From Diphasiastrum complanatum (lineage: Eukaryota > Streptophyta > Lycopodiopsida > Lycopodiales > Lycopodiaceae), in NCBI GenBank assembly GCA_029204225.1, contig CM055113.1:17522445-17586444 (forward strand): 64,000 nt of DNA, written 5' to 3'. The position numbers and the translations under genes were made by a program. Shown one piece after another: positions 24,090-54,675 of the stretch (position 1 is its first letter; each line of letters starts with the position of its first letter). The notes under the pieces were generated by a model. The model saw only the letters and a program-made list of their open reading frames with translations, was not told the origin of the DNA and did not search any database.

Positions 24090-24225
24090 CTCCTCCTCAA
24101 AACTAACTTGATAAAAATATGATGATATTGAGATTGACTCCATGGGCTGAATTGGTCTTCAAATAGGGATCCTTGCTGGTTCAAAGGTGTGAAGATCAGC
24201 CAATGAGCTTGATGTCGATCTGAAA

Positions 24226-28346: not shown

Positions 28347-29285
28347 GAACAGAGAACAGGCGATAAAGGTAGATCTAACCACATGGGTGGTAAAACCTAT
28401 TGCACCCAAAGCTGATGACGGATCATCCACGATAGATCATACGATTGACCGCCCAAGGCGAGCCAAGGGAGGTCACTATCATTCAAAGACAAATGTCATG
28501 AAATGGACGGATGCATTAGCAACTATTGACTGCCAGGCATGTCAATATGAATCAGATCTAGAACCGAGCACATCTTTACCCAAATGTTACACTATGGATG
28601 CACCAATCACATTTGGAGTGAATATGATAAACGTAGCATGGCTGTCAGTGGAGCCGATTGAAAACCCAGTGGACGATGATCTAGTCCCTTGGCAACATGC
28701 TCTAACTTATAATAAGGAGATTGAGCTGACTGATGAACAAGTCCTACACCACATGGACCCAGATCATTATGGAACCAAAAAGGTACCAGCTCAACCACCA
28801 TAAAGGTCTGCTATGGCGAAAGTCTCAAGGATCGAACCACCCAAGGCACCTACGAATAAGAAGAATCAGTTGAAGCAATGCTACAACCAGGTGATCCGAT
28901 GGAGTGACCTACCCGAAGAGGCAATAGCTACAGTAGACGTTGATATTCGCAACAGTCCCAAAGAATGACAACAAGGATGACCCCATCAAAATGACAAAAA
29001 AGAGCAAGAAAAAGGGTGTTGGATTCCTTGAAGTCAATCAAGTTGGACTCAGATACAACGTCATCTTCTACATAGGTGACAGAAAATAAAAAAATGACCA
29101 GTCGGGCCAAGATCAATATGCTAAAGGAGGAATCTCGACGAGCTCCAGTTCATGAGATGCCTGATACTTTCAAGAATTATACATTGGACGACATGGAAAT
29201 CATGATGCCACAAGCCCAACAAGAACTTGATCAAAGTTAGGCACTAGCGGAACAAGTCTTCGAGGGACCTGCGCAAACATAGCCG
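28347..29285 (+). pseudogene. Gypsy D protease-RT linker
   Basis: Variable linker of the polyprotein. An open stretch at 28387-28803 is followed by frame breaks. The segment APVHEMPDTFKNYTLDD near 29140 corresponds to MPESFKNYTLDDV of Gypsy C. Stops occur at about 28801, 29090, 29239 and 29281. No enzymatic motif is expected or seen. Confidence 0.6.
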
Positions 29286-31879: not shown

Positions 31880-32009
31880 GAATAGAGTTAAGGGAGAAAG
31901 TGGGAAATTAACTAAAAGTAGCATCTATGCATAGTTAGGCACCTATCTAGTGATCTAACCTTTGTTGACAGGCGGAAGGGCTATACTACGAAAGATCCTT
32001 GACACCACA
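31880..32009 (+). repeat. 3' LTR fragment of Gypsy D
   Basis: Matches the final 130 bp of the 5' LTR (about 22018-22148), ending GACACCACA. The first ~640 bp are missing because a deletion fused it to the integrase gene. Confidence 0.85.
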
Positions 32010-32819
32010 GCCAGTCTTGGATTAATTCCAAGATCCATGTTCAAGTCAACATAGATTAATTCTTAGGAGTGTTGAAAATGAAAAATCATCTATCTTGACT
32101 TTTGGTTTTGATAAGGTTTTTTTCTACATGTATGTAATGTTTCATATTGAAAATGCCAAATTTGGCCTAGAGAAAACTTGAGCTATATGGGTTATATGAA
32201 GTCTAGTTGGTCAAGTACAACATGCATATAGATTTAAGGCATAACCATTCTTTGATTACTAGTATGCTAGATTGTGTTTTAGTCATAAATTCTTGTACTA
32301 GATCTTGATATACAATCTAGAATCAGTTTATGTGCTAAACAGAAAGCTTAATAAGATCATTCACACTTGGAATTGGTTTTCCCACAAGTGTGAACCTGCT
32401 AGATTTCAACATAGAGGAGAAGATTTACAATGCACAATAAATCGACCTTAGAATTTTAAAACTAGCACTGTAGACTACCATTTCCATATAAAATACAATT
32501 CATAAAAGCCCATACAAAGCAACCAACTCATCAAACAAAGAATGAAACCCTTGTCAATGATGATAAGGAATTTGAAATACACAATAGAAACTTTGCACCT
32601 AGTAGTCTCAAATTTAGAACATGACAAGAACCAAGAATCAAGAACATGGACATGGATTAGAAAGAACCAAAAAAAGATATGTGAAACTTTCTTAGAAATA
32701 ATGTCTATGAGGTGATGTAAAAACTATAGCATCTAGTAATCAACCTCTCACTCTTGCGAAATCTCAACTCTCTCTCTTGTTGGGTCTTGAGATAGAGAAC
32801 CTATGGCTCTTATACCACT
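32010..32819. other. Element debris: K-like LTR start and Copia leader
   Basis: TCTTAGGAG|TGTTGAAAATG at 32068 resembles the GAGGAG|TGTTAAAAT border of K LTRs. A CACAC..CACAAGTGTGAACC pair near 32360-32400 resembles their palindromes. From 32819 downwards, the minus strand reads as a Copia leader after a primer site (see next entry). No gene. Confidence 0.4.
32806..32817 (-). other. Copia primer binding site
   Basis: Minus strand TGGTATAAGAGC, continuing CATAGG: one mismatch to the initiator-Met site TGGTATCAGAGC. It starts two bases after the CCAACA end of the LTR. Confidence 0.6.
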
Positions 32820-33825
32820 TGTTGGCGGTGGTACATGTATTTGAAAAAAAATAATTTATCAGCTCTGATACCACTCTTGCTGAATATGAGATCTAGACAA
32901 GAGAAACACAACGTTAAACTATAACAGGGTCTTGACAATCTGTTGATTCAGACCATTTTTTAGAACGATCAAAGGAATATCTTTGTAGGTGTCTAAGACA
33001 ACCATGAAGACAACGATACAATTAGGCATCTATGACAGCCATGCTTTTTTCAAGTTAGATATTCCGCATGAGTCGTGAAAACGAGTATTAGAGATAATCT
33101 AGGAAGAATTTATTAGAAAGCATTCATCAGTGCAAATACATGTAAAGAAAATAGAGAATCTATGTATTAGCTATTTTGTGCCCGAAAATAGTTTATAATA
33201 GTAATGCACTATGTGTTGTGATCCTACTATGTTGATTACATATTGAGTAATATCTCTACTTCTTGAACTACTTTCAATCTCTCTAATAATCTTTGATTCT
33301 ATAGAATTAGATAATCTGATACAATGGAGTTCACGAAGGAACCTTGATTCAAAATTTCACTGATTGATTGACTCTCCAGTTCATTTGTATGATGTTTTTG
33401 TTGTTCTATCTACTTCTGTTATTGTGTATATAAATACATCAGTTGCGGCGCAATTGTAAGAGTAAGGTCGTGAAGTGGTGTAGTTACTACAATGTGAACG
33501 ATGACATAGTCTGTGTTGGATAGAGCAGATTGAGAGCTTCCTATTGAGTGTTAACAGTCGACGGTGGATGTCGAGGGAGTTGAATGAGTCGAGTTGACTA
33601 TTTGCCCTTGAGTCAATGAGGTTGATGTTGAATATGTCAAACTCGGGCATGTCGAAGTCAATGTTGCTCTGCTTAGAAGTCGGGTATGTCAAAGCCGATG
33701 TATAAATAGACTATTTGACTTATGCGAGTAAGGTTGCATGCTGCTGTTGAGAGAGAAGATTTACATAGTATGGTAGTACTCAGAAAATGAATTCAGTTGA
33801 GTAGGAGTGAAGATTAACTCCAACA
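32820..33825 (-). repeat. Copia LTR with TGTTGG...CCAACA ends
   Basis: On the minus strand it starts TGTTGGAGTTAATC (33825), just after a Copia RNase H gene and a purine-rich tract. It ends CCAACA (32820), followed two bases later by a primer site. The ends are 6-bp inverted repeats as expected of an LTR. An extra initiator-Met-like word (TGGTATCAGAGC, minus, 32871-32860) lies inside it. Confidence 0.65.
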
Positions 33826-33838
33826 CTCCCCCGTAAGC

Positions 33839-34268
33839 TTAACTCCTAGGATCTTGAATGAAACTTAATAAGCAGCATAAAGTAACATGCTTTTCCCTCG
33901 ACATAGGTTTAGTCAAATTATCAGCCAACATATTGTTAGTGTGACAATAATTTAATTCGACAACCTTGTTGAGAACTTTCTCTCTAAGAAAATGAAATTC
34001 AATGTCAACGTGTTTAGTTCTAGAGTGAGTTTGTGGGTTCAGAGATAGAGCAATGTAGCTCTTATTGTCAGAATGGAGTATAGTTGGTCTGAGTTGAGGG
34101 AATTTCAGATCTTGGAACAATATTCTGAGCCAAATGATTTTGTTTACTGCAAAGGTCGCTGCGACAGCAAGTAGTGATTGAATTGATTGAATGTCTCAGC
34201 GTAGTCAGTCCCATAAGTTTGTTTGTATCCTTTGATGACTAGTCGAGCTTTCCATCTGGTTGTTTTTT
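33839..34268 (-). pseudogene. Copia RT start fused by deletion to RNase H end
   Basis: Minus strand. The RT beginning (RWKARLVIKGYKQTYGTDY, AETFN) is joined within a few codons to the RNase H end (VAATFAVNKIIWLR, ILHSDNKSYIALSLN, SRTKHVDIEFHFLREKV and MLADNLTKPMS). About 1 kb of RT and RNase H is deleted. It ends with TAG at 33839-33841, about 14 bp before the LTR. It belongs to a different Copia lineage from Copia-1/2. Confidence 0.8.
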
Positions 34269-34270
34269 CA

Positions 34271-34690
34271 ACTAGTTTATGGTCAAGATGTTGTCATGCC
34301 GATTGAATTTTGAATACCATCTTTACGCATAGCAGCAACAGAATGGTTAAATGATGATAAGTCTTTACAACTATGTCATGAACCGTTGCACAAATTGTGT
34401 GAAACAAGATTGATGGCAGTTCATGCGTTAGCAACAAAGAAAGCCCATCGTAAGCATGGCACGATCGTCATTTGCACAAAAAGGATATGAAAGAAGGAGA
34501 TCTAGCACTGATGTACAAAACCAAATTGATCAAGGGAAAATTGAAATTTACCAGTGAAGGACCATATAAAGTAAAGGAAATCTTGAGCTATGGAACAATG
34601 ATTCTTAAACACTTGGACGAAAAATGTTTTGATACTCCCGTGAATGACAACCGATTTACGCAAGTTTTGACAGCCTGCTCCGCCAGTTCA
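34271..34690 (+). pseudogene. Gypsy E integrase C-terminus
   Basis: Begins abruptly at LVYGQDVVMPIEF, the end of the integrase core. It continues through LHKLCETRLMAVHALA, then a one-base frame break near 34455, then LALMYKTKLIKGKLKFTSEG and FDTPVNDNRFTQ. Very similar to Gypsy B (14.6-15 kb), with which it forms a family. The core and RT are absent. The upstream neighbour is the minus Copia fragment. Confidence 0.85.
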
Positions 34691-35493
34691 GCAAGCCTGA
34701 TCCAAATGATTTTTTATTTTTCTTTGTTTTTAATTTATTGTTTTCACTACTTATTTGTTAACTTCTTTTGGAAAAGACAGTATGAAACAAAAAAAATGAG
34801 AAAAGACTGATGAGCAAAAGTCAGAATGTCATCAGCTCAGAAAGTAGTCAGATCTTTATGGGAAAATGACTTGAGAAATTACTTTTTTGGTCATTTTTTG
34901 CACAGACTATGTTAGAATTGTTCGCCGAGTTCTCAGAAGTAAGATCCACCTCAGATATATCCATACTGAGTTGGGCGAACGTTCTTTTCACCAATTACTA
35001 CCTCTTTTTGAGTTAGGCGAATGATCAGCAATATGCCATTTTGGGAACCTTCGCCAAGCATCTTACTCTCCTCAGAAACCTTCGCTGACATGCCAGATGG
35101 ACTTAAATTTCCAAAATTAGATTGGCTATAGGTTCAAATCTTGCAAATTTGCATTTATGACAGTACTTGGGCGAAGATTCATCCTTCGCCAGACTTGAAA
35201 AACGTTTGGCGGATAGGTTCAGAGCTTCAAAAACTTTCGTTGAAATTTTTATGGCCTATTTTCACAGTATTGAGCAAGTCTGCAAATTTTTGTTCAGAAC
35301 TGATCAGCCAAACTAGTATTCTGTATAATGGACCCTCCAAATCCACCTATAAGTTGGCTGAATTCGATTCATTCCTCACTTGTGCTAGCAAAGCTCTTGC
35401 CACTTTTTCCAACAACCAAAGCCTTCAAAACTTTCTATACTGTTTTCTGATATACACTCGTGCTCATTATTCTCAATTTCTGTTCTTTCCATC
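34691..35493 (+). other. Gypsy E spacer with TTCGCC/GGCGAA words
   Basis: Equivalent to the Gypsy B spacer. Examples: TTCGCCGAGTTC (~34921), GGGCGAACG (~34974), TAGGCGAATGATC (~35017), ACCTTCGCCAAGC (~35048), GGGCGAAG...CCTTCGCCAG (~35169-35190). Non-coding. Confidence 0.55.
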
Positions 35494-36235
35494 ATGTCTT
35501 CTACAGATACGTCTCAGTCACCTCGTTACACTATCCATCGTGATGTCCCATCTACAACGAATATCATGATCCTTCCTAGCACAAGCATGGTCACTCAGTG
35601 GATGACCCTTGCAGAGCCTCTGCTTATTACAATGGGTATTCATGAGAGAGCCTTCTCTCAACATGGATTTTATCACTCTTGCCTTTAGTATGTGGAAGGA
35701 GGAGAAATCCAAATTTTACATTACCTTCCAAGGAGCCACACACAAGGTGCGTATGACTGAGGCTGCCCTTGTTGCTATAGGGATAGCATCTGGTACCCAA
35801 GCCTCACCAAATGATAAGCAAGCCAAATAGGCTATTAAGCCTTATATTGACATTATCAATGATCTGCACTGGACTAATGACGACTATCTTCTAGAGGCCA
35901 TTACTGATCCTGCCATTCAGGCTGCTGCTCAGCTCCTCAACAATTTCCTAATGGTTGACAACCTCAAGAAAGACCGTATTACTTTCCAGATTTTGCATAG
36001 GATAGTTGAGTCTCGGGCCAAGATAGCCAAGGATCTTTTGGAACCATATAACTGGTTCAAGACTATCTTTGGAGAGCTCAAACGAGCCATCAAGATCAAT
36101 ACGAAGCAGCAATTTGCTGTTGGTCTGATGTTGTCACTCCTAGGAGCCTCCCACCTTGAAAATAAAATCCATGGTTTTAATATGGACGCCATGATTTCTA
36201 TCTATGAAGAGGCAGTTGCAGAGTCATCTCAATAG
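35494..36235 (+). pseudogene. ORF-X of Gypsy E
   Basis: Starts at the same MSSTDTSQS as Gypsy B. A short deletion after HERAFS shifts the frame near 35655. A TAG occurs at ~35828 after DKQAK. The frame then runs on through AITDPAIQAAAQLLNNFLMV, FQILHRIVESRAKIA and FAVGLMLSLLGASHLENKIHG, with a stop at 36233. Residue identity with the Gypsy B copy looks high (most positions). Function is unknown. Its position directly after integrase, in sense, is the same in all copies. Confidence 0.7.
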
Positions 36236-37735
36236 GCATCGAGCTCACATAGTCATCGTCGTCCATGCAGCAAGATCGTCATTCCTAACTCACCTTCCGC
36301 GTCACGATGTCGTACTAGGTAGACATCTTCAGCTGCGCTTCCACCCCCTGATGCGATTCGTACCGAACTACCTATTCCCCCTGTCTCTAATACTTCCTTC
36401 GCCTCTGCTTCCTCACAAGGTTAGTCTATGACAATTGGATCTTCCATTCTAGTCACAGCTGCCCCGCCCATCTCTTTTCCACAGATCCAAGTCATTTCTC
36501 CAACCACACAATCATTCAAGGACATGATCAATGATTCCAACCCACTGGGCCTAGCTAGATGAAACTTTTGTAATGCCCACCAACATGGGACCCTTTCAAC
36601 TCCAATTCCCTGGAAGAGAATTCAAACAGTTCCATGATACTGCTACTGGTTGTGATGATTATTTTTAGATCAACCAACAAGATCAAGTTGCAGTCGCACC
36701 AAACACCCTTAGAGTCGATCGTGCTATTATATCTCCAAAGTAGTTCGACGCCACAATACTAGAGGGTTTTGAAGTCGAAAATATATTTGAAGAAGAAGAA
36801 CCAGCCACACAATAGAGGCCAATTAGCACGATTCCTACCGAACCTCCTTTTGTTGCTCCTGCTACTACTATGCCTACTACCGTGGATTCTAGTGACGCAA
36901 TGGGTCTTGTTTCTAACCTTGCGCGCATGATCCAGACCATGATTGATGAAAAGAAAGATATGTCCAAGCGCATCGCCGATCTTGGGACAGAGAATACCCT
37001 GATTAGCTAGAAGGTTATTCAGATCAATTGCGAGCTGACGATTGCCAAACAACGTAAGGCAAAGTATGAAGCTGATTTGAAGAAGGCCAATGAGTCTGCT
37101 CAACAACTAGAAGACTATGTGGCAACCCTTCAGAATGCACTCACCACGGCGCAGGACAAGGTTGACAAGGCAGTCCAAGAATCCAAACAACAGGTCTTGT
37201 TGCTAGCCGGACAATTGGACTTAGCAGCATTGAAATGCGAACGACTTCAAGGTGAATTGGACGCGACAACCCTTGAACATGATTCCTACTTACAGACCCA
37301 AGTGCTTGATTGTCTAGTCACACCGGATGAGATCAAATATTTGTTTTGCAAAGTGGAAACCTACCATACTGCACTAGAGGGGTTTCAAGAAAAATTCAAT
37401 GAACTCAAAAGGACAACAACCACCGAGCTAGGCAAGGACAAAGCCATTATCAAGGATTATGAGAAAGTCGCCGCTCAGGTGTTGGAATCCGGGCCTCAAA
37501 TTCTAGTTCCATTAATGCCACAGTTCTCGCCTCAGCACAGGATCAGGACATAATGGATACATAGTTGGGTTCAAGCATGGAATAGGGTGGAGACCCCGAA
37601 GTCCAAGAAGAATAGCTAGTTCCACAGGAAACACAAGCAGGTCCATCTTCATCAATGACCACACCATTGTTCAAACGACCAATCAGCATCGAGGACCAGA
37701 TCTAGAGCTTTTTAGCGCAACATCCTCATGAGTCT
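36236..37735 (+). pseudogene. Gypsy E ORF-X continuation: Ser/Pro-rich linker and coiled-coil
   Basis: 36236-36890 is a frame-broken Ser/Pro/Thr-rich linker matching Gypsy B at 12.8-13.0 kb. From ~36900 a long coiled-coil appears (RIADLGTENTL, stop, then KKANESAQQLEDYVATLQNA). It has continuous hydrophobic heptads to ~37290, then a helical domain and a linker ending in TAA at ~37551, with a few more stops after it. The counterpart in Gypsy C is 5908-6849. Confidence 0.6.
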
Positions 37736-40648: not shown

Positions 40649-40652
40649 TGCA
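40649..40652. repeat. Left target site duplication TGCA
   Basis: TGCA directly outside the left terminal inverted repeat. It matches 54672-54675. The uninterrupted Gypsy codon series needs exactly one copy, which shows the 4-bp duplication is real. Confidence 0.85.
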
Positions 40653-40685
40653 TTAGAGGAGTTCTCAATATCAAAAAGACCCTTT
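40653..40685 (+). repeat. Left terminal inverted repeat, 33 bp
   Basis: Starts TTAGAGGAGTTCTCAATATC and ends GACCCTTT. It is identical to the reverse complement of 54639-54671; similarity stops at the next base. 40686-41170 inside it is AT-rich subterminal sequence without a gene. Confidence 0.9.
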
Positions 40686-41173
40686 AAGGAATGCCATGTA
40701 GGATATACAAAAATATCAAAATAAATAAAACAATATTGTTTATTTGCTTGCCCACACCACTCCCAAGGCCTCCCCAACTTCCAATGATCTAACCACAGTG
40801 TCTATAGTCACAGTTAAGAACTGTAAACAGTTCACAGTATAACTTGACTAAATTCAAAAATATTCCCTCCATTGGTTACAAAAAGGGCAATATTTTCACT
40901 GGATCTAGAATATGACCGCCATCCCCAAATTCGAATTAGGAAAAATTGCAAAATGTCTACATATGCATTCCTTCCACGAGAATGGAAATATGAGCGCCAA
41001 CTACCTATTGGAATGAAAAAATGAGTGGCATTTCCAAATTTGAATCAAGCATACAAGCATGGAGATTGGATTGATCGTACATAGTATATAATATAATTAA
41101 AGATGAGTATTTTGTTTTGCTTCATAGAATCTGGTCATAGTACTTTGATGCAACTGATTACTCTATTATTTTT

Positions 41174-43824
41174 TTGATGATGACATTGTATCTTCTACAT
41201 GTGGATATCCCTGTTGATTTGGCACCTTTGCAGAGAAGAGGAGGCAAAGGAGTTCAAATATCTGCTGAAGATCGTTCTCGTTACAGGGCAAAAGGAAAGG
41301 AAAACGTGGATTTGTGGACAAATGGAACATTATATCCACAAGATCCAAGCACTTTGACACATCCCACATTCTCTTCAATAACTCATTTAGTTACATGGAT
41401 ATGCAATGGGCATAGTGGATTACTAGGATATTGTGAAAGATTGCAAAACCATGGAAAACAACTTTATATGAATAAAGTTCACTTTTTAGAAGGTGAGTTA
41501 ATTCGGATATCCTCTTATTGTCAGAATAGAGATTGTCATCTCCAAAAGACGTTAGAAGAAAATGAACAACTTAAAAAAAATACTGAATCATTATAGAAGA
41601 TAGCAATCAATATCAAATCAGAACTAGAGCAAATGCAATCAGTCTTACAGTCTATTCGTATTGAAAACTTACAATTACTAAAGAATGTGGATTTGGTAAA
41701 GAAGAAGGCTGAAAGTAAGAAGCGAAAGCGACAAAGTTGCAAGGATATTCAAACGCTTTCAAAAGGAGGTTATCGAAATAGAAAGATCCGTGCATTCAAG
41801 TAAGCATATTCTAAATTTTGTAAGTTTTTCAATGACATTTGGATTTAATTTTGGCTATGGTGATATTCTGTTAACTAACTGTTTTTTTTGCAGATCTGCA
41901 TTAGTAGCTCCTCGGAATATTAAAGACAATGCTTCACTAGGAATGTCATTGGGCACAATATTGACTTGCAAATCCACTGAGCGTATCATGATGAACAATA
42001 GGATTTCAAATGTAAAGTATAAAATAGCAGAGTCTTTGATAGTGGACATTCAAAATATTTTAGATAAGACTATAGTTCAAGGTGCTTATGATTTTGCAGG
42101 TATTAGTAGGGAAGCATATGCAACAATATTTAAACTAATTAGAGAAGCTTTTAAGCAAGTTCAAATTAGAAAAGTCCCAATCCCTAGGACATACCACTTG
42201 AAGAAAGAGAGGGATACATTAAACATAGGTATGCGTAAGATCACTGGAACTCCATTTCATATTGAGGAGGTGTATGAAACTGATGGAAGATCGATATTCT
42301 ATAATTCATCAAAAATTTATTTGTTGATCTAAATTACTTGCTGAGATACATCGTCACATTCTATGATATAATCTATGAAAAGGTGAATGACAAAATAATC
42401 ATAGTACTTAAGTTAAATGAGTCAGAAATTGTGAAAGGGAAGAAGATGGAAAGGGTTAGTATAACTCTCATGAATGGTGCTCTATCCCCAACAGAGAACC
42501 AAGAAGATTTCAAATTTAGTGTCCAATCAGAAAATGATATATGGTGGTTGGCAGCGTTTCAAGTAACTAGCCTCATTATTACATTACATTCATTGAATAG
42601 TATTAATACATTGTAAACGTAGTATGATTAATTCTTTGGATAGGTGCTGAAAGAGGATCATGATATATTATTATGGATATTCTCAAGGACATCTTATCCT
42701 AGGATCATCAAGGACCATATGGATGGAGGATTTCTCAATGTTCCAGGAGTTGGAGACTTCAATGTTGAATGGCACTTAGCAGGTGATTTGAAAACATTGA
42801 AATGTATGTATAACGTCTCTCACAGTGCTACATCAAAACACCCTTGTTTATACTACATGAAAATGGCAAAAGATGTAGCTAGGCGTACAGGAATTACTAG
42901 AGAATATGCAGATCCAAACTGGAATCCTGTGCTGCCTATCCCCTTAAAAAATGTGCATGTTTGTGCTCTTCATGCAGAAGTTAGATTAATAGAAAAGATC
43001 ATTTATCTTCATATAGTTTTTGCTTGGAATACTAAGCCGGCATCATTAGCAAAGGAAGCTATCTCTCGATTAGAAGATGTTTTATCAAAAGCAGGACTCC
43101 ATAAAGGACATGTCAAAATTCAAAAAGATGAAAAGCTTTTAGGAAAGAATGGAAACATGCCAACTAAGCCAAGCATAGGAGGAGCAAAAGCACCGCGTTT
43201 CCTATCAAATCATACTGGTAAGGCTTCTAATATTCAACACTCAGTCTGGCCAGATATTATTGCTGCCACTCAAAACTTCAAGAAAGATGGCAAAACTAGA
43301 GTACTAAAAGTTGATGTATGGAAAAAGATTGATAGTATGATTGTTATTTTAAGAAAAGTAAAATACTCTGATATCGATAAGAAAGCTGTCCAAAGGACTT
43401 GTGTCGAGTTTGTTAATGCAATATCAAAAGCATGGGGAGAAGATCACATCACTCATTACATGGTTAGTATAAAATTTTCAAAATGCTTTCAAATTTTCAT
43501 ATATATATAGATCTAAACATAAGACTAACATTATGATTTTGACATATGCAGCACATACTAAGAGATCATACATCATTTTTTGCAAATACATATGGAATCT
43601 TGAGTGTATGGTCATCACAAGGGATGGAGAAGTCACATTGGCAAGCACGAGCAGCATTTCATTGAAATACACAACAAGGAGGAACCAATGAAAAACGAAA
43701 CTACATTTGTCAATTGTTTCAGTGGTTTTACCGTAGAGTTCAGATTCGACATATAACAAAGTCCACACAATACAACAAGTTTAGAAAAGCATGCAAGTTC
43801 ATACAGGAAGAGAAAATTAGATGA
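41174..43824 (+). pseudogene. Transposase-like gene, four exons, decayed
   Basis: Exons 41174-41799, 41894-42562, 42644-43462 and 43552-43824 have GT..AG borders and matching phases. The start is uncertain; an AG at ~41230 could be an earlier splice site. Exon 1 holds a coiled-coil and a basic KKRKR stretch. The later exons look like an RNase H-fold transposase: a strand reading VLKLNESEIV, then a conserved WHLAGDLKTLKCMY with an HPC motif, then ALHAEVRLIEKI, then SVWSSQGMEKSHWQAR. The last recalls the Glu motif of RAG1/Transib-type enzymes, but this is weak. Lesions: TAG 41594-41596, a one-base shift near 42320, TGA 43663-43665. The first putative acid reads Asn. Confidence 0.6.
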
Positions 43825-43965
43825 TTGTTGAGTAGAAGATCATCATGATATGTTCAGAATTGCTTTGCAAATTCATTGAACAAGAGAGGAGCAATACCCA
43901 ATGTAAATGTATTGATTGTATTATACAAAGTGTCAACTATTCATCATCAGATCTTGTATCAGATT

Positions 43966-45002
43966 CTATGGTAGTATTGTCATGAAGAAATCTCTGCTAG
44001 GGTATGCATCTAATAGATGTGCATTATCCTTATTTCCACTAAGCTCAATATAAGTGGAATACAATGAATAATGGGAGCTCCTTAAAGGAACATTCCCATC
44101 AGTAAAGCCTAAAATGTTCAAAACATAAGATCTTTTGACAAAAATGATTTTATTTGTCTTAATAAAATTTTGTCCTCCTAATTTAACTGCCATTATAAGA
44201 CTCTCCCCGACTGGGCTCAGCTTGGAATGAGCAATACAGATCTCACTCTTCAAGAAATGCCGAAGATAATGGCCCAGTCCACTGTCCCTCTGGAATGAGG
44301 ATGCGTGTTGTCTAAAACCACCTCGTCTCGCATCAAAATCATCAATTATGAGAGCATTCTGCAATAGGAAATATGTTAGCAAAAACACATTCAGTGATTG
44401 AAAACATTCAAATGCAAGGAAGATTAAACATTTACACATTCTTCATCATCAGCAGCAACCAAATCAGGATGATCAATATAATGACCACGTACTGAAGTGG
44501 AATCATCAGTGAAATGCATTAATGATGGACGAGGGAAGCCCATCTGGGATTGAAATGCCGTGAATTCTTCATCATATGGTTTGCCTCGCCCATCCTCATC
44601 TATATTTGATAAAGTCTTATTCAGACATTCTTCACCGGTCCTAAGACCCTCCTCATCATCAAAATCAATACCAGCAACAAGGTCATCTGTCTCAAAATCT
44701 ACAAAGTCGGAGAATTCGGAAGTTGTGTCGGATAGTAAGCATAGAACCTCGTCCTCATGATAGTCAAAAAATTTACATAAATCAGCAGTAGTAAAATATA
44801 CATCATCATTAATATAATATACAGACAAATTGAAAAGACATTTCAAATCCTCCATAGATTTGGATTCATCATCAGATGTATTTTGGCCAATGAAAGAATC
44901 CCGGAGAACATCAGTATTTAAATCAATGAAGTCACTTTCTTTATCAGGAGTGTCATGTCTCGTGTTCATTTGAGTGCTTATAAACACATGTCGCTCTCGC
45001 AT
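43966..45002 (-). CDS. Acidic protein of unknown function (gene A), two exons
   Basis: Exon 1 45002-44436 and exon 2 44358-43966, joined in phase over a 77-bp intron (GTAAAT...TTGCAG). ATG at 45002 is chosen because the in-frame sequence before it starts with no ATG; a second Met lies 16 codons later. About 320 residues. The first ~190 are strongly acidic (DDEEGLRTGEE, VDFETDDLVAGIDFDDEE). The C-terminal part is a compact-looking domain with FDARRGGFRQHASSFQRDSG, LGHYLRHFLKSE and KTNKIIFVKRSYVLNILGF. No family recognised. No stop or shift was seen, so it is the best-kept gene of the element. It converges on the transposase gene (142-bp gap) and diverges from the H3-Ulp1 gene. Confidence 0.6.
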
Positions 45003-45430
45003 TCGGTCGTACAAATCCCACACGTGTAGTGTGACAGAGTGAAACGTGTCACACTCGCATTTGTCTGTACAACCCCCACACGTGTGACAGGACGTTCTTT
45101 CGCATGTGCAAACCCCGATATAAAATCACAAATTTCAATGATTTTTTTTCACTTTTTTTTCGCTCCGCATATCGCATTTGTGCGCGCCCTTCACGATCAA
45201 AATTCCTCCTACTACCTTCCATGCGCACAGGTCCGATACATCTTCCTACATGTCACCTCATATCGCACTTGCACGTCTTTCCTCAAATCTAATCGTTCTC
45301 TCTGATAATCGGCTCGCATAGGTCCGATATACGGTACATTCTGTCTGTACATAGCGGTCCTCTGCGAGTTCTTTATCATCCCTTCCTTCTCATCCTAACC
45401 TTCACGCACAAGTCTGCTATCACATAGTTC
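45003..45430. promoter_or_regulatory. Divergent promoter between gene A and the H3-Ulp1 gene
   Basis: A 428-bp gap between two divergent start codons. Near the gene A side, a ~58-bp unit is duplicated: CTCGCATTCGGTCGTACAA + CCCACACGTGT (44997-45027) and CTCGCATTTGTCTGTACAA + CCCACACGTGTG (45055-45086). The palindromic CACACGTGTG contains a G-box (CACGTG) core bound by plant bZIP/bHLH factors. Further on, GGTCCGATA occurs twice (45231, 45321). No clear TATA box. Confidence 0.55.
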
Positions 45431-47164
45431 ATGCCCATGGATAGGAGAAAGCAGACAAGGAGAGACTTCTTCTCTCCTGGCTCATCCTCATCTCCTGCGG
45501 TTGCCATCACACCCCCTGCTAGACCTAGAACGCACAACCGCAGCAGGGGCTCTCTGAGATACGCAAGTATCAGAGGTCAATAGTTCTGTTGATCCCAAGA
45601 GCTCCATTCTACCGTGCTGTCCGAAACATAACAAGAAATGATCTCGAACAGCACGTTAGATTCACACCGAATGCTCTTCAGTGCCTTCAGGAGGCTGTTG
45701 AAGATTATATTAGTCTTTTTTTTGAGGATTCTTTTTTGCTTGCCATCCATACCAAGAGGGTTACCATAATGCCAAAGGATTTTCAGCTTCTGATCAGAAT
45801 GAGGGATAGGTACTATAGGTTACATGTATCTCAGCCTGCTACTCCTAGACCAACTCCTGTAGATAGGACTCATCTTCCTACGAAGCGTCCTAGTAAGCAG
45901 ACAGCCCTCAAGCGTGCTCCTAAGAAAGTGAAGCCTATCCCAGAATCCATTGTAGATAATGCTACTGTTGATAATGCTGTAAATACAGCTACCTCTATTT
46001 TGGATACTCCTAATATTGCTGTAAATACTACACTTCCACCTCCTCCTCCTCCTCCCAATTTCTATACATATATAGATTCGGATGATTATCTTAAATTTGA
46101 GAAAGACATATCGGATGGTATAGATACAATTGGTATTCCTTTTTGTTTTAGAGTAGAAGAACTTGATTTTAGTATTAATTTTAGAGTTCTAGATTGTCTG
46201 GATCTCAAAGACAGACGGGCTTCTATCAGTGATCCTGTGATAGAGTCCGGGCTGACACTCTTGCAATTTGACATTACAAGAGATTCATCAAACGAGTTGC
46301 TGGTGCTGAGTAACTTTCTGCTCCAGGCCTTCAAGGAGAATAATGACACATTGTCACAGTGTTTGAGAAGTGGATTCACACCAACAACAAAGTATCTGGT
46401 CATTCCTTATCATACCAAGTAAGATATATTAAGTGCTTCTTCATGTTTTATGCATTAACATTGACATTTTCAATTTAAATAGTTCTCAGAATTGTCGCTA
46501 AAGTACTTTCAATCTTATTTTGCAGTGAGCACTGGAGTTTAAACCGGATCTCTATTAAGGGATCTGTGAATAATATTATTAATGTTCTTGTGTCAAGATG
46601 AATTAGGTGAGAAATACACATAATGATGTAGATATATTCATTCCATATCTAAGTAAATATATTCCTACAGACATTCCCCATTCCGTGGACTGGCAGATCG
46701 TCAGCTTGGAGGTAAACTTTGTCTTTCTTAATAGCATTTTGAAATCAGTATTCAATGAAATATTTTCAATCTAATTCATTCTGTTTCATAATTGATTTCT
46801 TTTGTGCTGAATTATTTTTCAGTCACCCCAGCAAAATGATTCATTCAGCTGTGGGTGGTACACATTGTACAATGCCGAGTTGTTTTTTGAGTGGTTCACC
46901 CTTTAACAAGATGTTGATATTTCTAAGGTAATAAATTTTGTTTATTCTTATTTTGGAATCATGACTAGTTTTCTATTCTGGTGATGTTATTGGCCATTAC
47001 TAATACATGAATGTTCTATTTTGTAGTTTACACTTCCTGAGTACACATCAAGCCAGGTGTACAGATTTAGACAATAAATTATCCTGAGTATACTGGCTCG
47101 AGCAAGGCTTCAGCCTCCCGTTATTGATAATGGTGCAAAGGATGATGTAGTTGTACTAAATTAA
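45431..47164 (+). pseudogene. Histone H3-like fold fused to Ulp1-type cysteine protease
   Basis: Five exons: 45431-46418, 46526-46606, 46671-46711, 46823-46927, 47027-47164. The N-terminus is basic, H3-tail-like (MPMDRRKQTRRDF). After a shift near 45570 comes EIRKYQRSIVLLIPRAPFYR and RFTPNALQCLQEAVEDYI, then KRVTIMPKDFQL: helix aN to a3 of histone H3/CENP-A. Next are a basic stretch (SKQTALKRAPKKVK) and a poly-Pro linker. The C48 (Ulp1/SENP) domain follows: LVIPYHT-N-EHWSL (His codon 46530), DWQIVSLE-SPQQND (Gln) and FSCGWYTLYNAELFFEW (Cys codon 46850). The catalytic Asp position reads NVLVSR. Lesions: the 45570 shift, a phase mismatch at exon 2/3, TAA 46904-46906, TAA 47075-47077. Such proteases cut SUMO/ubiquitin-like conjugates. 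Confidence 0.82.
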
Positions 47165-47359
47165 GATCAGAAAAAATATAGATAGCATAGAATAAAAATA
47201 CATCTATAGACTTCATAGAAAAATATACATTGATATATCAAATGTTGCTCCAATTTATGAATTTGGGAGCACAAAATACATGTATAGATGCCCAACTTGG
47301 GCTTTCATTTATTGAATGAAAGGGTGTATACACAAATTTTTACTAAAGTTTATTTGAAA

Positions 47360-48732
47360 CTATTGTTCTCCCACAATGGTGATTGTTGTAGGTAGATCTT
47401 TGCAGCACGTTATCAGCTCCTGTCTTTTTTGAATCTGTGACATGGCAAATATTAGTGAATGTGCAATTGTAAATGATGACATTTTCTATTATTTTGTTCT
47501 ATTTTGAAATGGCAATAAACATAAAGTACTTACGAGTCTTCCGTTGATGATAAATCTGAAATATGTTGGTAGATTGGTTTGTAATAGCATGAGCTCTGTT
47601 ATGATAAAATCAAGCTTCCAGTGCTCTTCCACCTCAACCATAGTCAAATATTCCTCATTGTAGATAATGCTTATCTCCATTTGGTTTGTGTGACCATTTA
47701 GTTCAAAGTCTTGATCCTGTGGTAGCCATGTACCTTCAATTTTCTTGTATCTCTGGTAGCTAAATATGAGACTGAGCATTTGCTTTTCGATATGATAACG
47801 AAAGATCATTGAGGACTTTTTAATCCTTCATTCTATGTCATTATTTGTTTTACTATCCCAGCCTTGATCCATGAGATCTGACAAAGTCTCATCTGATAAA
47901 TCCTTGCAAACAAATAAAGTTGGTGTCCTACGAACACTAGCACTCGAGAAAAAATCAACAAATGTATGCAATGAGATAAACCAACTTAGGTGAACAATTT
48001 TGGATCCTGTGCTTATCTTCATAGCATTTTTAATATCAATGAGTAGCTTGCATCTCAAGAATTTAGAAACAATGCTGTCAAGAGTAGGCCACTCATCACT
48101 TTGAAAACTTGGCAATGGAATTGCTTCGAGCTTGCCAAAACCTCCATCTATTTGTGGCGTATATAAAGATTCATAAAAATAGATACCACAATCTGCAAGT
48201 TCCTTTGGACTTCTTCCTTTGTACTGTAGCTTTCCAACATCAGAGTGAATCACGTCTAATATTCTTGCAAGTGATTGTGCGGGCTCCCATTCACTTATGC
48301 ATGATGGATATAAATCTGAAAGCAAAAAACAATGTTGAGGCATTCAAATCATAATCTGAAGAGCATCAATAAAGGAAATCACCTATGATTGCTGTTGAGT
48401 GCATATGTTTTGATATACTTACAATTACATTTTTGATGATCATGAGGATTGATATCATGTACTTTGATTTCTGAATGCATATATACATGTTGCACTAAGA
48501 CATCTGATATCGATTGACCTCCCGGGGTAGTCTTAAAATCCATAATTTTTGCTTTCCAATAAGATTTGTAGGACATTTTTGCTCTTTTCTTTTGTCAAAA
48601 ATTGTCCTTTGATGATGGATGCAACAATACCCATGAGTTCTTCGTATATTTTGTTGGCTTCCAGTTATCAGCTTCATCTTTTTCATTGTAAAGAATCACA
48701 GAATCGATTGTAGATCCGGGTCTCCTCGCCAT
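47360..48732 (-). pseudogene. Unknown protein gene B, three exons
   Basis: Exons 48732-48423, 48315-47534 and 47434-47360 join in phase (donors GTAAGTAT and GTAAGTAC; acceptors TTTCAG and TCACAG). About 385 residues from ATG 48732 (MARRPGSTIDSV) to TAG at 47360. Exon 1 contains NSWVLLHPSSKDNF and ISDVLVQHVYMHSEIKVHDI. Exon 2 contains YPSCISEWEPAQSLARILDV and LPSFQSDEWPTLDSIVSKFL. The last part is Glu-rich. Two in-frame TGA codons (one in exon 1 near 48597, one at 47828-47830) inactivate it. No family recognised. It converges on the H3-Ulp1 gene with a 195-bp gap in which I see no gene. Element K2 inserted ~95 bp upstream of its ATG. Confidence 0.55.
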
Positions 48733-48825
48733 TGCTATTTTCAAATCTCTCTGATATGTTACTTGATTTTAATTTTTCGTATCACATTTAATCTAATGTG
48801 AATGCCAACATAGTCATAGTTACTG

Positions 48826-48830
48826 CATGT
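48826..48830. repeat. Left target duplication of K2 (CATGT)
   Basis: CATGT abuts the 5' LTR; CACGT (54315-54319) abuts the 3' LTR. The single difference is a C/T transition inside a CpG, as expected from deamination. Confidence 0.65.
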
Positions 48831-49677
48831 TGTTAAAATTGGCAAAAGCTAACTTGATCAAATCTTGTAAATACCATTATGAGTAGTACATATCATCATT
48901 AGACATGTGTGGATCCTGTTCCCACGTGTGAAATAAATGCATTTATCATTTAGATGAGTCATATAGGTTGTACATACCATTTCATTTAAGATCTAGTGGC
49001 TAAAATGGCCAAAATCTAGTTTTCTAGCTATATGCCACTTGGCATCATTTTATTGGTATGAAAAGCTATTTCACATGGATAGGAGTGATCTCACACGTGC
49101 CAAGGACTGCTCACATGTGTGAAAACATCAGTAGTAGGTGAGATCCAACTTGTAGTAGATATTTGTGCAAGTCCCTATAAATTAGGAAAATTGCCTAAAA
49201 TCAAGGGAGGTGGCTATAAGTTAGGAAACTTGGTCCATGTGCCATATTGATGATTATTGGTGGATCCTTTGATGAGTAGGAACTCTCACACGTGCCAAAT
49301 CAGCTGAGTAAGCATCAGCTCTTGTGTATATATGGTGGCTCATTTGGCCATAATTGACAAGAAAGCTAAATCTTGGTTTTGGTGCATTTCTTGAGTAATC
49401 TCTCCATTTGTCTTGTGATTTTATGCTTCTAATGGTTTCTAAGCTTAGTGTACTTCATTATTTGCTGGTAGTTCGTACTCTGACAGGTATTCACACGTGT
49501 GAAACCAGCAAGTACAAGTTTTGATCATATTTGATTGTTCTTGTTAGATTTGTTGATGTAGATTTGATCTAGTGCTATCTAATCTTGTGTAGATTGGTAG
49601 ATCAATCTAATCTAACACCCAATCACACTTGTGGATCTGATTTGGATCCATTCTTGGTCCTTTTTGCTGTACTTTCA
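48831..49677 (+). repeat. 5' LTR of K2
   Basis: TGTTAAAATTGGC...TACTTTCA. It differs from the 3' LTR by about eight substitutions and one 4-5 bp indel by eye. TATATAT at 49327-49333. CACGTG/CACATGTG-type palindromes at 48903, 48923, 49092, 49112, 49287 and 49492 (full CACACGTGTG). Confidence 0.9.
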
Positions 49678-49679
49678 CA

Positions 49680-49691
49680 TGGTATCAGAGC
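49680..49691 (+). other. K2 primer binding site
   Basis: TGGTATCAGAGC, the standard initiator-Met tRNA complement of plant Copia elements, two bases after the LTR end. Confidence 0.9.
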
Positions 49692-51393
49692 CAAGTACAA
49701 GTGCATTTAAGGCATTGATCTAAACTATACCCAAATTGGCAGGTTTTTGGAAACAAGCTAATATTGAGGTAGTGAAGCTGAATGGATTGCTAGAACCATC
49801 ATATTTGTACCAAATCTTGCTGTGGGCTGCAGGTGTACTTTCCACACGTGTGGGGCCGTACAGGACCTATTTTTGACAGTAAAATTCAGTTTGATGCATT
49901 TTGAGCTTCATACACCCAATTTTGAGTCAATTTAGTGCATTTTTCAAGCTTTCACTTGCATTGTTTCTATTCCATTGATTTGTTCTTGGTTTAGATCAAT
50001 CATATAGATGGATTAAAGCTTTTTTACAGGACATTGAAGTTGATTCTCTGATTTTTTGAGTGTACATTGAAGTTGAGAGAGAAAGAGTGCTATAAACTAA
50101 AGATTAAGGAGTGATTTGCAAGGGGGGAGATTGAAATCCATTATACCTTCATTCTAGATTTGTTCAAGAGTGAAAGGGCTGAGTCTAAAAGCATATAAAT
50201 GCTAGAAGAAACTCTTGGATCAGTCCTCCAAGGGAAATCTTAGTGAATTTCTAAAGCACAAACACTCATAAAGTCAAAATCTACCTATACAAGGTGATAA
50301 GAATTGTTGGCAAGTACTAGGAGAAAAAATTGAGGTCACATTGTTCACCCCTACTCAAGTGTGTGAGTGTGGTTTTTGGCTTGGATTAAAGTCATAAAGG
50401 TGAGTGAGGCATATGTGTTGTGGTTGATCCAAAATTTTCAAGAGATCCTTCCTTTGTAGAGGGCAAGAACTAGTAACTCAATTCTTGACTTTGGTGGAAA
50501 AATTGTCTTCTTCATTGTGATCAAATCTTGCTAAGTGGCATTAGCTCTTTGTAAGCAAATACCTTAGTGAGAGATAAGTATTACATTTCTGAAAATTTGA
50601 ATTTCATTCCAACTCTAAAGAGGTAGAGTCATTGGTACTTGGTGGAGTCCAATAGGGGTGAATGAATTCAATTTTTTGAGCAAAATTTTGACATTATATG
50701 TATGAAACTCAAATAAGTTCTATTCAACTTTCTTTGTGAGAGTGTGAGGGTCAAGTTGTGATCCCATTGGGAGTCTAGAACAGGGAGGAGTCCATATTTG
50801 AGTGTTCATACATGATTGGGATCTTTGTGAATCTCTAGATGTCTAATTTTAAAGCTTGGTGAAAAATTATTGACATAGATTGTTATCAAACCATTTCATG
50901 TCCATTCCAAATCTCAAGAGTGATATTCTTTGGGTCAAGAGGGATTCCAAAAGGGGTGATTGGATCTGATCTTTGTGTGTTTGAATCAAGTATACATGTC
51001 AAGTTTTTGTGATCTAGTGTAGATCCTTTTTTTGTGAAAATTAGTGGTTTAATTTGTTGCCAAATCAAATCAAATTCAATCCAAATCTCAAGAGTGAGAT
51101 TATTTGGGTCAAGAGTGATTTTAAAAGAAGTGACTAAGTTTGATTTTCAGATATTTGAAACAAAACCCATACTTTGTTCAAGAATCTCAAAAGCTGAGAG
51201 AACTAGTCAAGAGAAAAGGAAAATCTAGGTGTCAAGTCTTTTCAAATCCATTCCAACTCTCAAGAGGAAGATTCATTGGTATTTGTTGAGTCCAATAGGG
51301 GTGTTTGGATCTGATTTTTGTGATTTGATAGAGTGCTTTTGTCTTAGAGATCAAAGAAAAGATTAGTTTCCAATTGACTAGGTTGACAGAGAT
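49692..51393 (+). repeat. K2 leader with four ~75-bp repeated units
   Basis: Non-coding. Another CACACGTGTG lies at 49843-49852. Units beginning CATTCCAACTCT(C/A)AAGAGG or a variant, and holding GAGTCCAATAGGGGTG or a variant, lie at about 50604, 50895, 51074 and 51245. The homologous K1 leader has the same four. This may be an RNA packaging or structural region. Confidence 0.65.
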
Positions 51394-53346
51394 ATGATTC
51401 AAAATTTGTGGTCTAGATCTTGTGTAGATCCTTCTAGATTGTTGAATGTGTTCAAATCTAGTTTCTTGAGAGTCACAAATTACATTTTGAAAAGTCATAT
51501 CACTAGGTTTTACTTCCTCATCATGGCATCAATAGGTGGCAACCTATTGGAGGCAAGCAAGGATCCTAAATGCAACCTTTGTGGCAAGAGAGATTGTTTT
51601 GTCTCAAGATGCTACAAAATGAAGATCAATCCATCCAAGGAGAACCAAAGCAAGGGGTCCGAGGTGAAGGATGGAGCTTCAAGTTCAAAGTTCAAAGGCA
51701 AGAAGGACAAATCCAAGGAAAGGTGTTTCCTTTGTGGAAAGATGCATGAGGCTTGGAGTCTCACAAGGATTTACAAGATTTGTCTTCAAAAGTCCATCAT
51801 CACACATTTCAAACATTTTGAAGTTTTGCATTTGAAAGTGAATTTTTTGGTTCAAGATGCAAAGATAAATGTCACTTTCATTAATGTCACTTGGATTTAT
51901 TTCATGTCCTTGGAAAGCATTTTGCTTAGAACTTTAGAAAAGTTCAAATTTATTGTTATGATCCAAGAGAAACCAAGAAAGATTAAGGAGAAATCACAAA
52001 ATAAAAATAGTTTCATTTATGCTCTCATGAAATCTTATGAAGAACTATTTTGCTTTGAAGAGATTTTTGTATCTCAAAGGTGGATTAAGGCAATACTAGT
52101 TGAGTGTGATGCCTTAATAGATAGCAAAGCATGTTTTCCTTGTAAACTTACATTGAATATGAAGTCAAGGAAATGGAAATGTCTTCATAATGTATTTTTT
52201 GTTGGTTTCAATAAGGTCATGAATGATGTGTTCATTCATAATGTTGAAGATTGTAAATTTTCAATTTTAAAGGCAAGTTGTAAACTTCTTATGAGAATAA
52301 GTGAGGCATCCAAAGTGGACACTTATATCCATAAGCAAGTAGTTAGCCTTATTGAGATGGAAATACTTCTTGATTTCAATATTAGAAAAATCATGCCAAG
52401 TTGTGGTGATTTTTGGACTTATGGTTCTAGCATAAGTAATGTTGATAATCATATGAAGTGCACATTATACGATCATGTTTGTTGTGATCATTTTAAGACA
52501 TGGAGGTCTCGGATTTCCATCAAGGAGGAGCACCAAGGAGTTGATCTTGAGGAGTCATCTCGAGGTTCAAGTGTGCCAAGGATTGAGGAGGAGAGTCCTT
52601 CTCAAGTTGTGATTACAAGAAGAATATCAAGAGACATGGTTGAGCTCATATGGCTCACATTTCAAGGGAAAGAGGAGCACATTTCAAGTGGTATACATCT
52701 CATGCTTGCTTCTCTTATGTCATTTGGTGAATCAATTTGCTTTAGTGAGACTTTTGCATCTCAAAGTTGGAGTAAAGCAATACTAGTTGAGTATGGTGTC
52801 TTTCTTGAGAACATAGTTGATGTTCTTAATGATATGAAATTGATTTTAGATCAATTAGAAAGCAAATGGTTATTTCATCAAATGTATGTTCTTGAGTCTT
52901 GCAAGAGCAAGAGTGAGTTGTCCACTCATAGTATGAAAAATTGTCTTTTTTCATGTATTGAGGCAAATTGTGAATCATCCTCTAAGGAAACTTATCTCCA
53001 TAATGAAGTATCTAGCCTCATTAGATATGAGATTAGCATGGTAACCAAGCATGAAGATATGATACAAACTCTTTGTTATTATAGCATGCATAGTCTTGCC
53101 AATGTTGATGAGCCTAATCCTCGAGATCTTGGTAACATGATGTTGGATCTTTGTGATCCTCATGAGTCAAGAAGGACTCTTTATTTTATTATGGAGTTTC
53201 AGCTATTTCCAAGGAGGAGGAGCTTTTGGATCAACCATATGCTTCAAGGATGGAACAAATCAATGAAAGAGGTGCTAGGATGGTGCAAAGCTCTCAAGTT
53301 CATCAAAAAAGTCAACATCAAAGAGGCATTATCATGGATATGGTGA
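51394..53346 (+). CDS. K2 gag-like ORF with altered zinc knuckle
   Basis: A single open frame of 650 codons. The first ATG may be a leader codon; MASIGGNLLEASKDPKCNLC at ~51523 is the likelier start, because it follows the K1 match and precedes the knuckle. The knuckle reads CNLCGKRDCFVSRC, so the His of CCHC (present in K1) is Cys. A second Cys pair is FLCGKMHEAW. After it come ~500 residues of unknown type with repeated short blocks (SQRWIKAILVECDALIDSKA and ASQSWSKAILVEYGVFLENI look like diverged copies of one unit). The whole region lacks pol motifs. The intact length next to ~1% LTR divergence indicates recent insertion or selection for the ORF. Confidence 0.7.
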   Translation: MIQNLWSRSCVDPSRLLNVFKSSFLRVTNYILKSHITRFYFLIMASIGGNLLEASKDPKCNLCGKRDCFVSRCYKMKINPSKENQSKGSEVKDGASSSKFKGKKDKSKERCFLCGKMHEAWSLTRIYKICLQKSIITHFKHFEVLHLKVNFLVQDAKINVTFINVTWIYFMSLESILLRTLEKFKFIVMIQEKPRKIKEKSQNKNSFIYALMKSYEELFCFEEIFVSQRWIKAILVECDALIDSKACFPCKLTLNMKSRKWKCLHNVFFVGFNKVMNDVFIHNVEDCKFSILKASCKLLMRISEASKVDTYIHKQVVSLIEMEILLDFNIRKIMPSCGDFWTYGSSISNVDNHMKCTLYDHVCCDHFKTWRSRISIKEEHQGVDLEESSRGSSVPRIEEESPSQVVITRRISRDMVELIWLTFQGKEEHISSGIHLMLASLMSFGESICFSETFASQSWSKAILVEYGVFLENIVDVLNDMKLILDQLESKWLFHQMYVLESCKSKSELSTHSMKNCLFSCIEANCESSSKETYLHNEVSSLIRYEISMVTKHEDMIQTLCYYSMHSLANVDEPNPRDLGNMMLDLCDPHESRRTLYFIMEFQLFPRRRSFWINHMLQGWNKSMKEVLGWCKALKFIKKVNIKEALSWIW

Positions 53347-53471
53347 TTTCGGATCGACATCAAGCTCATTGGCTGATCTTCATACCTTTGAACTAGCAAG
53401 GATCCATATTTGAAGACCAATTCAGCCCATGGAGTCAATCTCAATATCATCAAGTTAGTTTTGAGGAGGAG

Positions 53472-54314
53472 TGTTAAAATTGGCAAAAGCTAACTTGATC
53501 AAAATAAATACCATTATGAGTAGTACATATCATCATTAGACATGTGTGGAGCCTGTTCCCACGTGTGAAATAAATGCATTTATCATTTAGATGAGTCATA
53601 TAGGTTGTACATACCATTTCATTTAAGATCTAGTGGCTAAAATGGCCAAAATCTAGTTTTCTAGCTATATGCCACTTGGCATCAATTTATTGGTAGGAAA
53701 AGCTATTTCACATGGATAGGAGTGATCTCACACGTGCCAAGGACTGCTCACATGTGTGGAAACATCAGTAGTAGGTGAGATCCAACTTGTAGTAGATATT
53801 TGTGCAAGTCCCTATAAATTAGGAAAATTGCCTAAAATCAAGGGAGGTGGCTATAAGTTAGGAAACTTGGTCCATGTGCCATATTGATGATCATTGGTGG
53901 ATCCTTTGATGAGTAGGCACTCTCACACGTGCCAAATCAGCTGAGTAAGCATCAGCTCTTGTGTATATATGGTGGCTCATTTGGCCATAATTGACAAGAA
54001 AGCTAAATCTTGGTTTTGGTGCATTTCTTGAGTAATCTCTCCATTTGTCTTGTGATTTTATGCTTCTAATGGTTTCTAAGCTTAGTGTACTTCATTATTT
54101 GCTGGTAGTTCGTACTCTGACAGGTCTTCACACGTGTGAAACCAGCAAGTACAAGTTTTGATCATATTTGATTGTTCTTGTTAGATTTGTTGATGTAGAT
54201 TTGATCTAGTGCTATCTAATCTTGTGTAGATTGGTAGATCAATCTAATCTAACACCCAATCACACTTGTGGATCTGATTTGGATCCATTATTGGTCCTTT
54301 TTGCTGTACTTTCA
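53472..54314 (+). repeat. 3' LTR of K2
   Basis: TGTTAAAATTGGC...TACTTTCA, preceded by the purine tract at 53457-53471. TATATAT at 53964-53970 and CACACGTGTG near 54128. Confidence 0.9.
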
Positions 54315-54319
54315 CACGT

Positions 54320-54638
54320 ATACCATATTTTATGTAACTGTACATACTATATTTCTATAACTATAACTAGTATAGTTAGAAAATTTCATTATACTAACCA
54401 TCATAGTAAAGTAAACTTAACTTTAGATATTGACGTCGGGCAAATTAGCACGTGTCGGGCAGGAAAAAGAAACCAATGGGATACATCCATGCTGTCGGAC
54501 ACAAATTTCAAAGTTTTCTATATTGTATTTTTATTTTTTAGTTAATTTGAACTACGTTACGTAGATTTCAAATCTGTGCATTTTGATTGGGCCTAGTTAC
54601 GGTTGAAACGAAAGAAAAATAAATAAAAGAATCTTTAC
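54320..54638. other. Right subterminal region of the DNA transposon
   Basis: AT-rich, with short runs of TATAACTATAACTAG type. It was the upstream region of gene B before K2 inserted. No gene. Confidence 0.5.
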
Positions 54639-54671
54639 AAAGGGTCTTTTTGATATTGAGAACTCCTCTAA
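54639..54671 (-). repeat. Right terminal inverted repeat, 33 bp
   Basis: Exact reverse complement of 40653-40685. TGCA follows at 54672-54675. Confidence 0.9.
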
Positions 54672-54675
54672 TGCA

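Follow-up and report, generated by a model that had tools for sequence, protein, structure and literature searches.

A lycophyte DNA transposon carries a histone H3-like gene fused to a C48-type protease domain and kept by purifying selection

What could a DNA transposon do with a histone gene of its own, and why should that histone be joined to a protease-like domain? The locus that raises this question lies in Diphasiastrum complanatum, in a stretch of 64,000 nucleotides of contig CM055113.1 that was analyzed as a whole and is here called the window; coordinates are window positions unless another sequence is named. The initial annotation, made from the letters alone, read positions 45431..47164 as a transposon-encoded fusion of a histone H3/CENP-A-like fold with a Ulp1-type (C48) protease. 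Its histone half is borne out. The open reading frame at 45529-46422 (+), of 297 codons, holds an H3 histone fold in its first 93 or so residues. It matches PF00125 above the Pfam cut-off (E 7.8e-26) and H3 chains in the PDB (E about 3e-21), and its alignment to H3 runs from alpha2 through the C-terminus. The fold is followed by a basic, proline-rich linker and then by a C48-type domain, which three more exons complete in the same frame.

All four exons lie on the plus strand. Exon 1 (45431..46418) encodes a lysine-poor tail, the H3 core (about 45546-45810), the poly-Pro linker and the N-terminal half of C48. Exon 2 (46526..46711) carries the histidine of C48, exon 3 (46823..46927) its Gln and Cys landmarks, and exon 4 (47027..47164) runs to the stop codon. 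The window copy is broken by frameshifts in the N-tail and in exon 2, one stop in exon 3 and an early stop in exon 4; its C48 part, translated as a read-through with X at stops and with provisional bounds for exon 2, matches PF02902 at E 7.7e-7. An additional intron within exon 2 was ruled out, the stretch being open in most copies. The junctions predicted at 46418/46526, 46711/46823 and 46927/47027 all hold in a set of 35 copies read with splices at these points. This set was obtained from 45 loci by dropping five near-identical duplicates and five longer versions of loci that it already contained; near twins such as L037/L038 were retained. Six of the 35 are complete genes from ATG to stop with GT-AG at all three introns, and they encode proteins of 470 aa (five copies) or 479 aa (one copy). 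The remaining 29 are interrupted or cut, except L064, which reaches no stop in the sequence read. Two of the six complete copies were scanned against Pfam, and all of their matches exceed the cut-off (PF00125 at 1.2e-25 and 4.9e-25; PF02902 at 5.1e-10 and 5.3e-6), which substantiates the Ulp1/C48 half of the annotated fusion.

The poly-Pro linker and the EHW, PQQND and SCGW landmarks of C48 are present as described. The histidine is kept in all 35 copies, and the Gln and Cys are kept in 30 and 25, respectively, of the 32 copies that have letters there; the Cys is replaced in two of the six complete genes. Near the place expected for the catalytic Asp, the location of which is itself uncertain, a D occurs in 2 of the 35 copies and mostly K-C in the others. 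Since this Asp is not evident, the C48 domain may be inactive, and the deSUMOylation proposed for it is unproven.

The fusion recurs across the genome (1.74 Gb in 5176 contigs). With the exon-1 protein as query, 132 places were scored out of 9500 first-look candidates. All 132 match it over at least residues 23-281 of 297 with 81-100% identity, and all hold both the H3 and the C48 parts within one exon; we refer to these elements as family A. The scored list favors full-length matches, and a universal fusion cannot be concluded from it alone. The two parts are likewise present in L079, where C48 has an internal gap, and in L080, two elements picked by their paired terminal inverted repeats (TIRs). 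The H3 and protease parts are therefore not always separate genes in this genome: they are fused at every scored family A place, but in the related families B, C and D, described below, the reading frame closes after the histone. A chance reading frame is ruled out by the 132 matching places together with the selection result.

Decay is widespread among the copies and includes a recurrent stop. At the LFF(E)DSF codon of the histone core, the 35 family A copies read TAG (17), GAG (8), GAA (7), AAG (2) or a gap (1). The codon follows a T-run, and TAG changes five times on the tree, which may reflect either a hot spot or a defective lineage of long standing. Because this histone-core stop is common to 17 of the 35 copies, many copies do not depend on a protein that they encode themselves. 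Among the stops in the exon-1 matches generally, TAG appears far more frequent than TAA or TGA, an excess to which the shared TAG codon contributes. Decay of CAG to TAG where CHG is methylated may be a further source.

Is such a gene only a captured fragment? Selection was measured on the 35 copies against a neutral spectrum drawn from the three introns (278 sites), under which 75.6% of changes are expected to be non-silent. Variants shared by at least three copies comprise 124 non-silent, 113 silent and 3 stop changes over the whole gene (omega 0.38, p 2e-14). Singletons comprise 335 non-silent, 115 silent and 15 stop changes and are neutral (omega 1.00), and variants in exactly two copies are intermediate (omega 0.53, p 0.0015). 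Among variants in at least three copies, constraint extends over the histone core (omega 0.27, p 9.5e-7), the linker (0.42, p 0.0013), the C48 part of exon 1 (0.34, p 5e-4), C48 exons 2 and 3 (0.47, p 0.003) and exon 4 (0.27, p 0.007); in the tail it is not significant (0.48, p 0.086). The copies are not independent, so these p-values serve only as a guide. In the nine family B copies, variants present in at least two copies divide into 5 non-silent and 6 silent (p 0.034 against an assumed 0.75), and singletons into 38 and 14. As the elements multiplied, the H3 core and the C48 parts were both preserved by selection. It is almost certain that this is a transposon-borne H3-C48 gene under purifying selection.

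These results bear on the reading that the gene is a passive passenger, made of host H3 and Ulp1 fragments that were captured and have no function. Capture of gene pieces is described as frequent in plant transposons in a portion of PMC13317346, and the 29 incomplete copies would fit a passenger. The purifying selection on shared variants speaks against it, with the neutral singletons as an internal control, as do the existence of complete genes and the presence of H3-like genes in four families; we consider the passenger reading very improbable. Purifying selection is evidence of function, not of which function, and the element that carries the gene has to be considered next.

The claim that the gene is borne by a transposon is upheld by the limits of the element. 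The family A transposon occupies 40651..54673 (+), and at both of these limits the similarity among copies breaks off sharply. The left TIR (40651..40685, +) begins CATTAGAGGAG... and the right TIR (54639..54673, -) ends ...CTCCTCTAATG, giving termini of the form CATTAG...CTAATG. An LTR element at 48831..54316, with LTRs 98.5% identical, is nested within the transposon and separate from it, and the similarity of other copies skips it; without it the window element measures about 8.5 kb. A 94% identical relative of this LTR element lies in inverse orientation at 23239-27523. Also outside the transposon, the window holds long inverted duplications of 2.3-2.8 kb with 80-88% identity (8897-15000 and 29137-36552). 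The first 32 TIR bases, with up to 3 mismatches, occur 1177 times forward and 1240 times reverse genome-wide, compared with 0 for a reversed-pattern control. This amounts to about 1,200 pairs' worth of ends, some of which are local duplicates. Among the first TIR places listed, dense family A ends with shared flanks occupy C1 at 65.1-66.7 and 95-100.6 Mb (L069-L078), where an element-containing segment seems to have been amplified locally.

Upstream of the histone gene, the element encodes a transposase (ORFs at 41141..43510, +), recognized as RAG1/Transib-like and of DDE type through its homologues, the predicted fold of one of them (P0029) and the family B transposase. Its first-Asp region (42305-42616, +) reads N in the window copy, and the second Asp and C(2)C region spans 42644-43507 (+). 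A further exon (43552..43671, +), with a stop near its end, supplies the H(4)H motif and the last catalytic Glu (HILRDH...GMEKSHW), the Glu lying 20 residues on from HILRDH. In a 24-row transposase alignment C267 is invariant and C270 stands at 90% or more. The transposase gave no Pfam match over the cut-off. The window piece folded alone gave no fold match, and the longer relative P0029, 43% identical, gave a predicted fold nearest to RAG1/Transib. The family A transposase is accordingly predicted to be of the RAG1/Transib-type RNase H fold. P0058, a calmodulin-like gene model of D. complanatum, is 84% identical to the transposase over 13% of its length; its C-terminal transposase piece is probably a mis-annotation across an insertion.

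Two further gene-like regions complete the element. A partner gene of two ORFs (43966..45125, -) is divergent from the histone gene; its ORF at 43966-44442 matches the family B partner at E 4e-8, and the ORF at 44424-45125 only at E 0.22. The stretch at 47489..48720 (-) is conserved as DNA in L079 and L080, and its two longer ORFs gave no Pfam match over the cut-off. Histone and transposase travel together. Between the 132 histone places and a list of 135 transposase places there are 19 pairs within 8 kb, where chance would give 0.16, and all 19 are on the same strand and 2.9-3.8 kb apart. In six 10-kb stretches around histone matches, the transposase lies upstream in four and is absent in L040 and L043.

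The pairing of histone and transposase raises the possibility that the protein is an integration or transpososome factor, in which the H3 fold would bring the transposase complex to chromatin through H4 or nucleosomes and C48 would act there. In support, histone and transposase occur together in the 19 family A pairs and in the family B element L068, and RAG1-type recombinases work with a chromatin-reading partner, the PHD of RAG2. Two examined insertions also lie in apparent retroelement genes: the flanks of the window element and of L044 look, by their motifs, like gypsy and copia proteins. At these two sites the joined flanks read on in frame with no base gained or lost; the joins of five other elements are less telling. 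The reading fits poorly with the dispersal of the placed copies. It also fits poorly with the distribution of relatives, which were found for the transposase in other sequence samples, but for the linker and C48 part of the read-through not outside the source genome, in a search that needs shared 5-letter words and can miss relatives. On balance, a transpososome factor seems unlikely. The insertion sites carry no target-site duplication in any of the seven elements with both ends (six of family A, one of family B), and a section of PMC12730594 gives a duplication of 2-5 bp for the CMCT (CACTA/Transib/RAG1) clade.

Is the protease part of what these elements need, or an addition? The relatives of the element give an answer. 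Thirteen places (L048-L060) were taken from the upper part of the genome-wide PF00125 list. Nine belong to a second family, B, two to family A, and L052 and L060 each stand alone, as families C and D. The complete family B element L068 is 7.9 kb long, with a TIR that begins CATTAGGGCCC... and the same CATTAG...CTAATG termini. Its transposase is 40% identical to that of family A (E 1.6e-75), and one exon of its partner gene is related to the family A partner, at the E of 4e-8 given above. The family B H3-like protein is 48% identical to that of family A and matches PF00125 at E 2.1e-29, but it ends without C48, and no C48 was found in nine L068 ORFs scanned against Pfam. Family B ends number 979 and 971 genome-wide (control 0), about 975 pairs' worth. 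The family B partner gene also adjoins the histone in families C and D (E 4e-48 and 4e-68). As the reading frame stops after the histone in family B, and does so too in the one copy each of C and D, a histone is what these elements carry in general and the protease is an addition. L068 has an extra ORF at 527-1198 whose resemblance to PB1 is faint (E 0.15, below the cut-off).

If the histone is the common cargo, its kind matters. The family A tail, MDRRKQTRRDFF..., contains one Lys in 24 of 30 in-frame tails, two in four and none in two. It has one K4-like motif (RKQT) and no K9/K27-type ARKS site, and no ARK motif occurs in the tail in any of the 35 copies. The H3 positions that face H4 or that contact DNA and the tetramer partner look kept in the alignment. 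Family A is 53-55% identical to host H3 and 44-53% identical to CENH3/CENP-A cores. The family C copy is about level, at 50% to rice CENH3 and 48% to host H3. A histone tree built on 94 columns and without host CENH3, in which 21 of the 33 inner branches stay open, does not place family A with CENH3. The CENP-A identity entertained in the initial annotation is not supported by these comparisons.

The same annotation suggested a centromere-directed module, in which a CENP-A-like part would target the element or the protease to centromeres. In the alignment, family A shows an extra loop 1 residue and a 'LIP.APF' word of CENH3 type, which point that way, as does the slight lead of rice CENH3 in family C. 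The tree, with its many open forks, lends this no support, and the identities of families A and B, which lie no closer to CENH3 than to H3, point the other way. The positions of the copies do so as well: the 94 of 132 copies placed on chromosomes (38 on other contigs were left out) do not depart significantly from a uniform spread (KS p 0.096). The dense patches of TIRs on C1 were considered as centromere clustering and rejected, because all ten fetched ends fall into two flank groups; with shared flanks these are duplicated segments, not separate insertions. Of all the readings, direction to centromeres is the hardest to credit.

Constraint on the core of an H3 without K9/K27-type sites suggests another role. 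The H3-C48 protein, given its fold and core constraint, would likely pair with host H4, and it may enter or replace nucleosomes on element DNA. Chromatin built with a tail that lacks the K9/K27-type ARKS site could not take repressive H3K9/K27 methylation, and nucleosomes of this kind on the element would refuse that mark. In family A, the attached C48 might strip, or merely bind, SUMO-type modifiers on silencing factors there. As 29 of 35 copies are not complete, any such protection does not last. An anti-silencing role is favored because the Ulp1-bearing VANC genes of Vandal elements and the TET genes of transposons are taken as models: part of PMC13317346 reports a Ulp1 domain in some anti-silencing VANC genes of Arabidopsis Vandal elements, and part of PMC12730594 reports TET dioxygenases/JBP on fungal DNA transposons of several families, probably directed against silencing. 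By this analogy, we put an anti-silencing role of the protein at a little under an even chance. The explanation that best covers the whole, a selected, transposon-carried H3-C48 working as an anti-silencing and chromatin-access factor, we regard as evenly poised.

The kept core would equally suit a chaperone or H4 decoy, a surplus H3-like protein that competes with host H3 and loosens chromatin generally. The H3-core constraint and the seemingly kept H4-facing positions agree with a decoy, which nevertheless leaves unexplained why, in family A, the histone is joined to a C48 domain that is itself under selection. Many such genes, if expressed, would presumably be costly to the host as well. 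We judge a decoy improbable, somewhat more so than a transpososome factor. The anti-silencing reading can also be extended to the whole group of elements. They may form a RAG1/Transib-related lycophyte lineage with a dedicated H3 variant, whose own nucleosomes could not be methylated at K9/K27 and of which one family added a Ulp1-type SUMO eraser; this broader picture is tentative and less likely than not.

A selected histone on a transposon would allow a direct test of whether a parasite escapes silencing by supplying its own nucleosome part. If the proposal is true, an element-encoded chromatin state would stand in place of an element-encoded enzyme. The family A gene would also offer an instance in nature of a histone joined to a SUMO-protease fold. 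The RAG1/Transib-like predicted fold is extended to a group of elements without target-site duplication and with relatives in other samples. Outside the source genome, 19 proteins match the histone part only, over at most 31% of the query. Two of the sequences found in ENA contigs, P0012 and P0014, are proteins of 477 aa in which a long N-terminal region precedes a C-terminal H3 core; they belong to clusters of 10 and 8 members and are possibly histone carriers of another repeat family. A search of viral contigs, made with the transposase only, found none that encodes a transposase relative.

How do these elements compare with known systems? DNA transposons that carry a chromatin gene as cargo are already known. 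For a histone in that role, present here in several families and in one of them joined to C48, no precedent was met among titles and the beginnings of abstracts in a literature mostly outside subscription journals, bioRxiv and Repbase. The statement that no H3-Ulp1 fusion had been described stands at the same level. The word 'histone' is absent from the searchable text of a 2026 review on plant transposon gene capture (PMC13317346). Compared with H3 variants, including CENP-A/CENH3, the family A protein has a complete H3 core and an RKQT tail start like the ARTKQT of H3, but it differs in its tail without K9/K27-type sites, its identity of only 53-55% to host H3 and its C-terminal C48 domain. 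With the CMCT, RAG1 and Transib group, the elements share the predicted fold, the C(2)C past the second Asp, the H(4)H ahead of the Glu and the 5'-CA...TG-3' ends of families A and B. They differ in having no target-site duplication and no Pfam match over the cut-off, and in carrying H3. The KIU/Vandal MULEs with Ulp1 in VANC (Kaonashi), as presented in part of PMC13317346, are likewise plant transposons with an accessory Ulp1-domain protein and a plausible anti-silencing role. In family A, however, Ulp1 is joined to an H3 histone and not to VANC, and the transposase is RAG1-like by predicted fold. The fungal TET/JBP transposons outlined in PMC12730594 similarly place chromatin- or DNA-modification cargo in several transposon families, whereas the cargo of families A and B is a histone and not a 5mC enzyme. 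Finally, large DNA virus histones and the bracovirus H4, as summarized in PMC9145170, are also histone genes on a genetic parasite; those reside on viruses, whereas here an H3-like gene is carried by TIR transposons.
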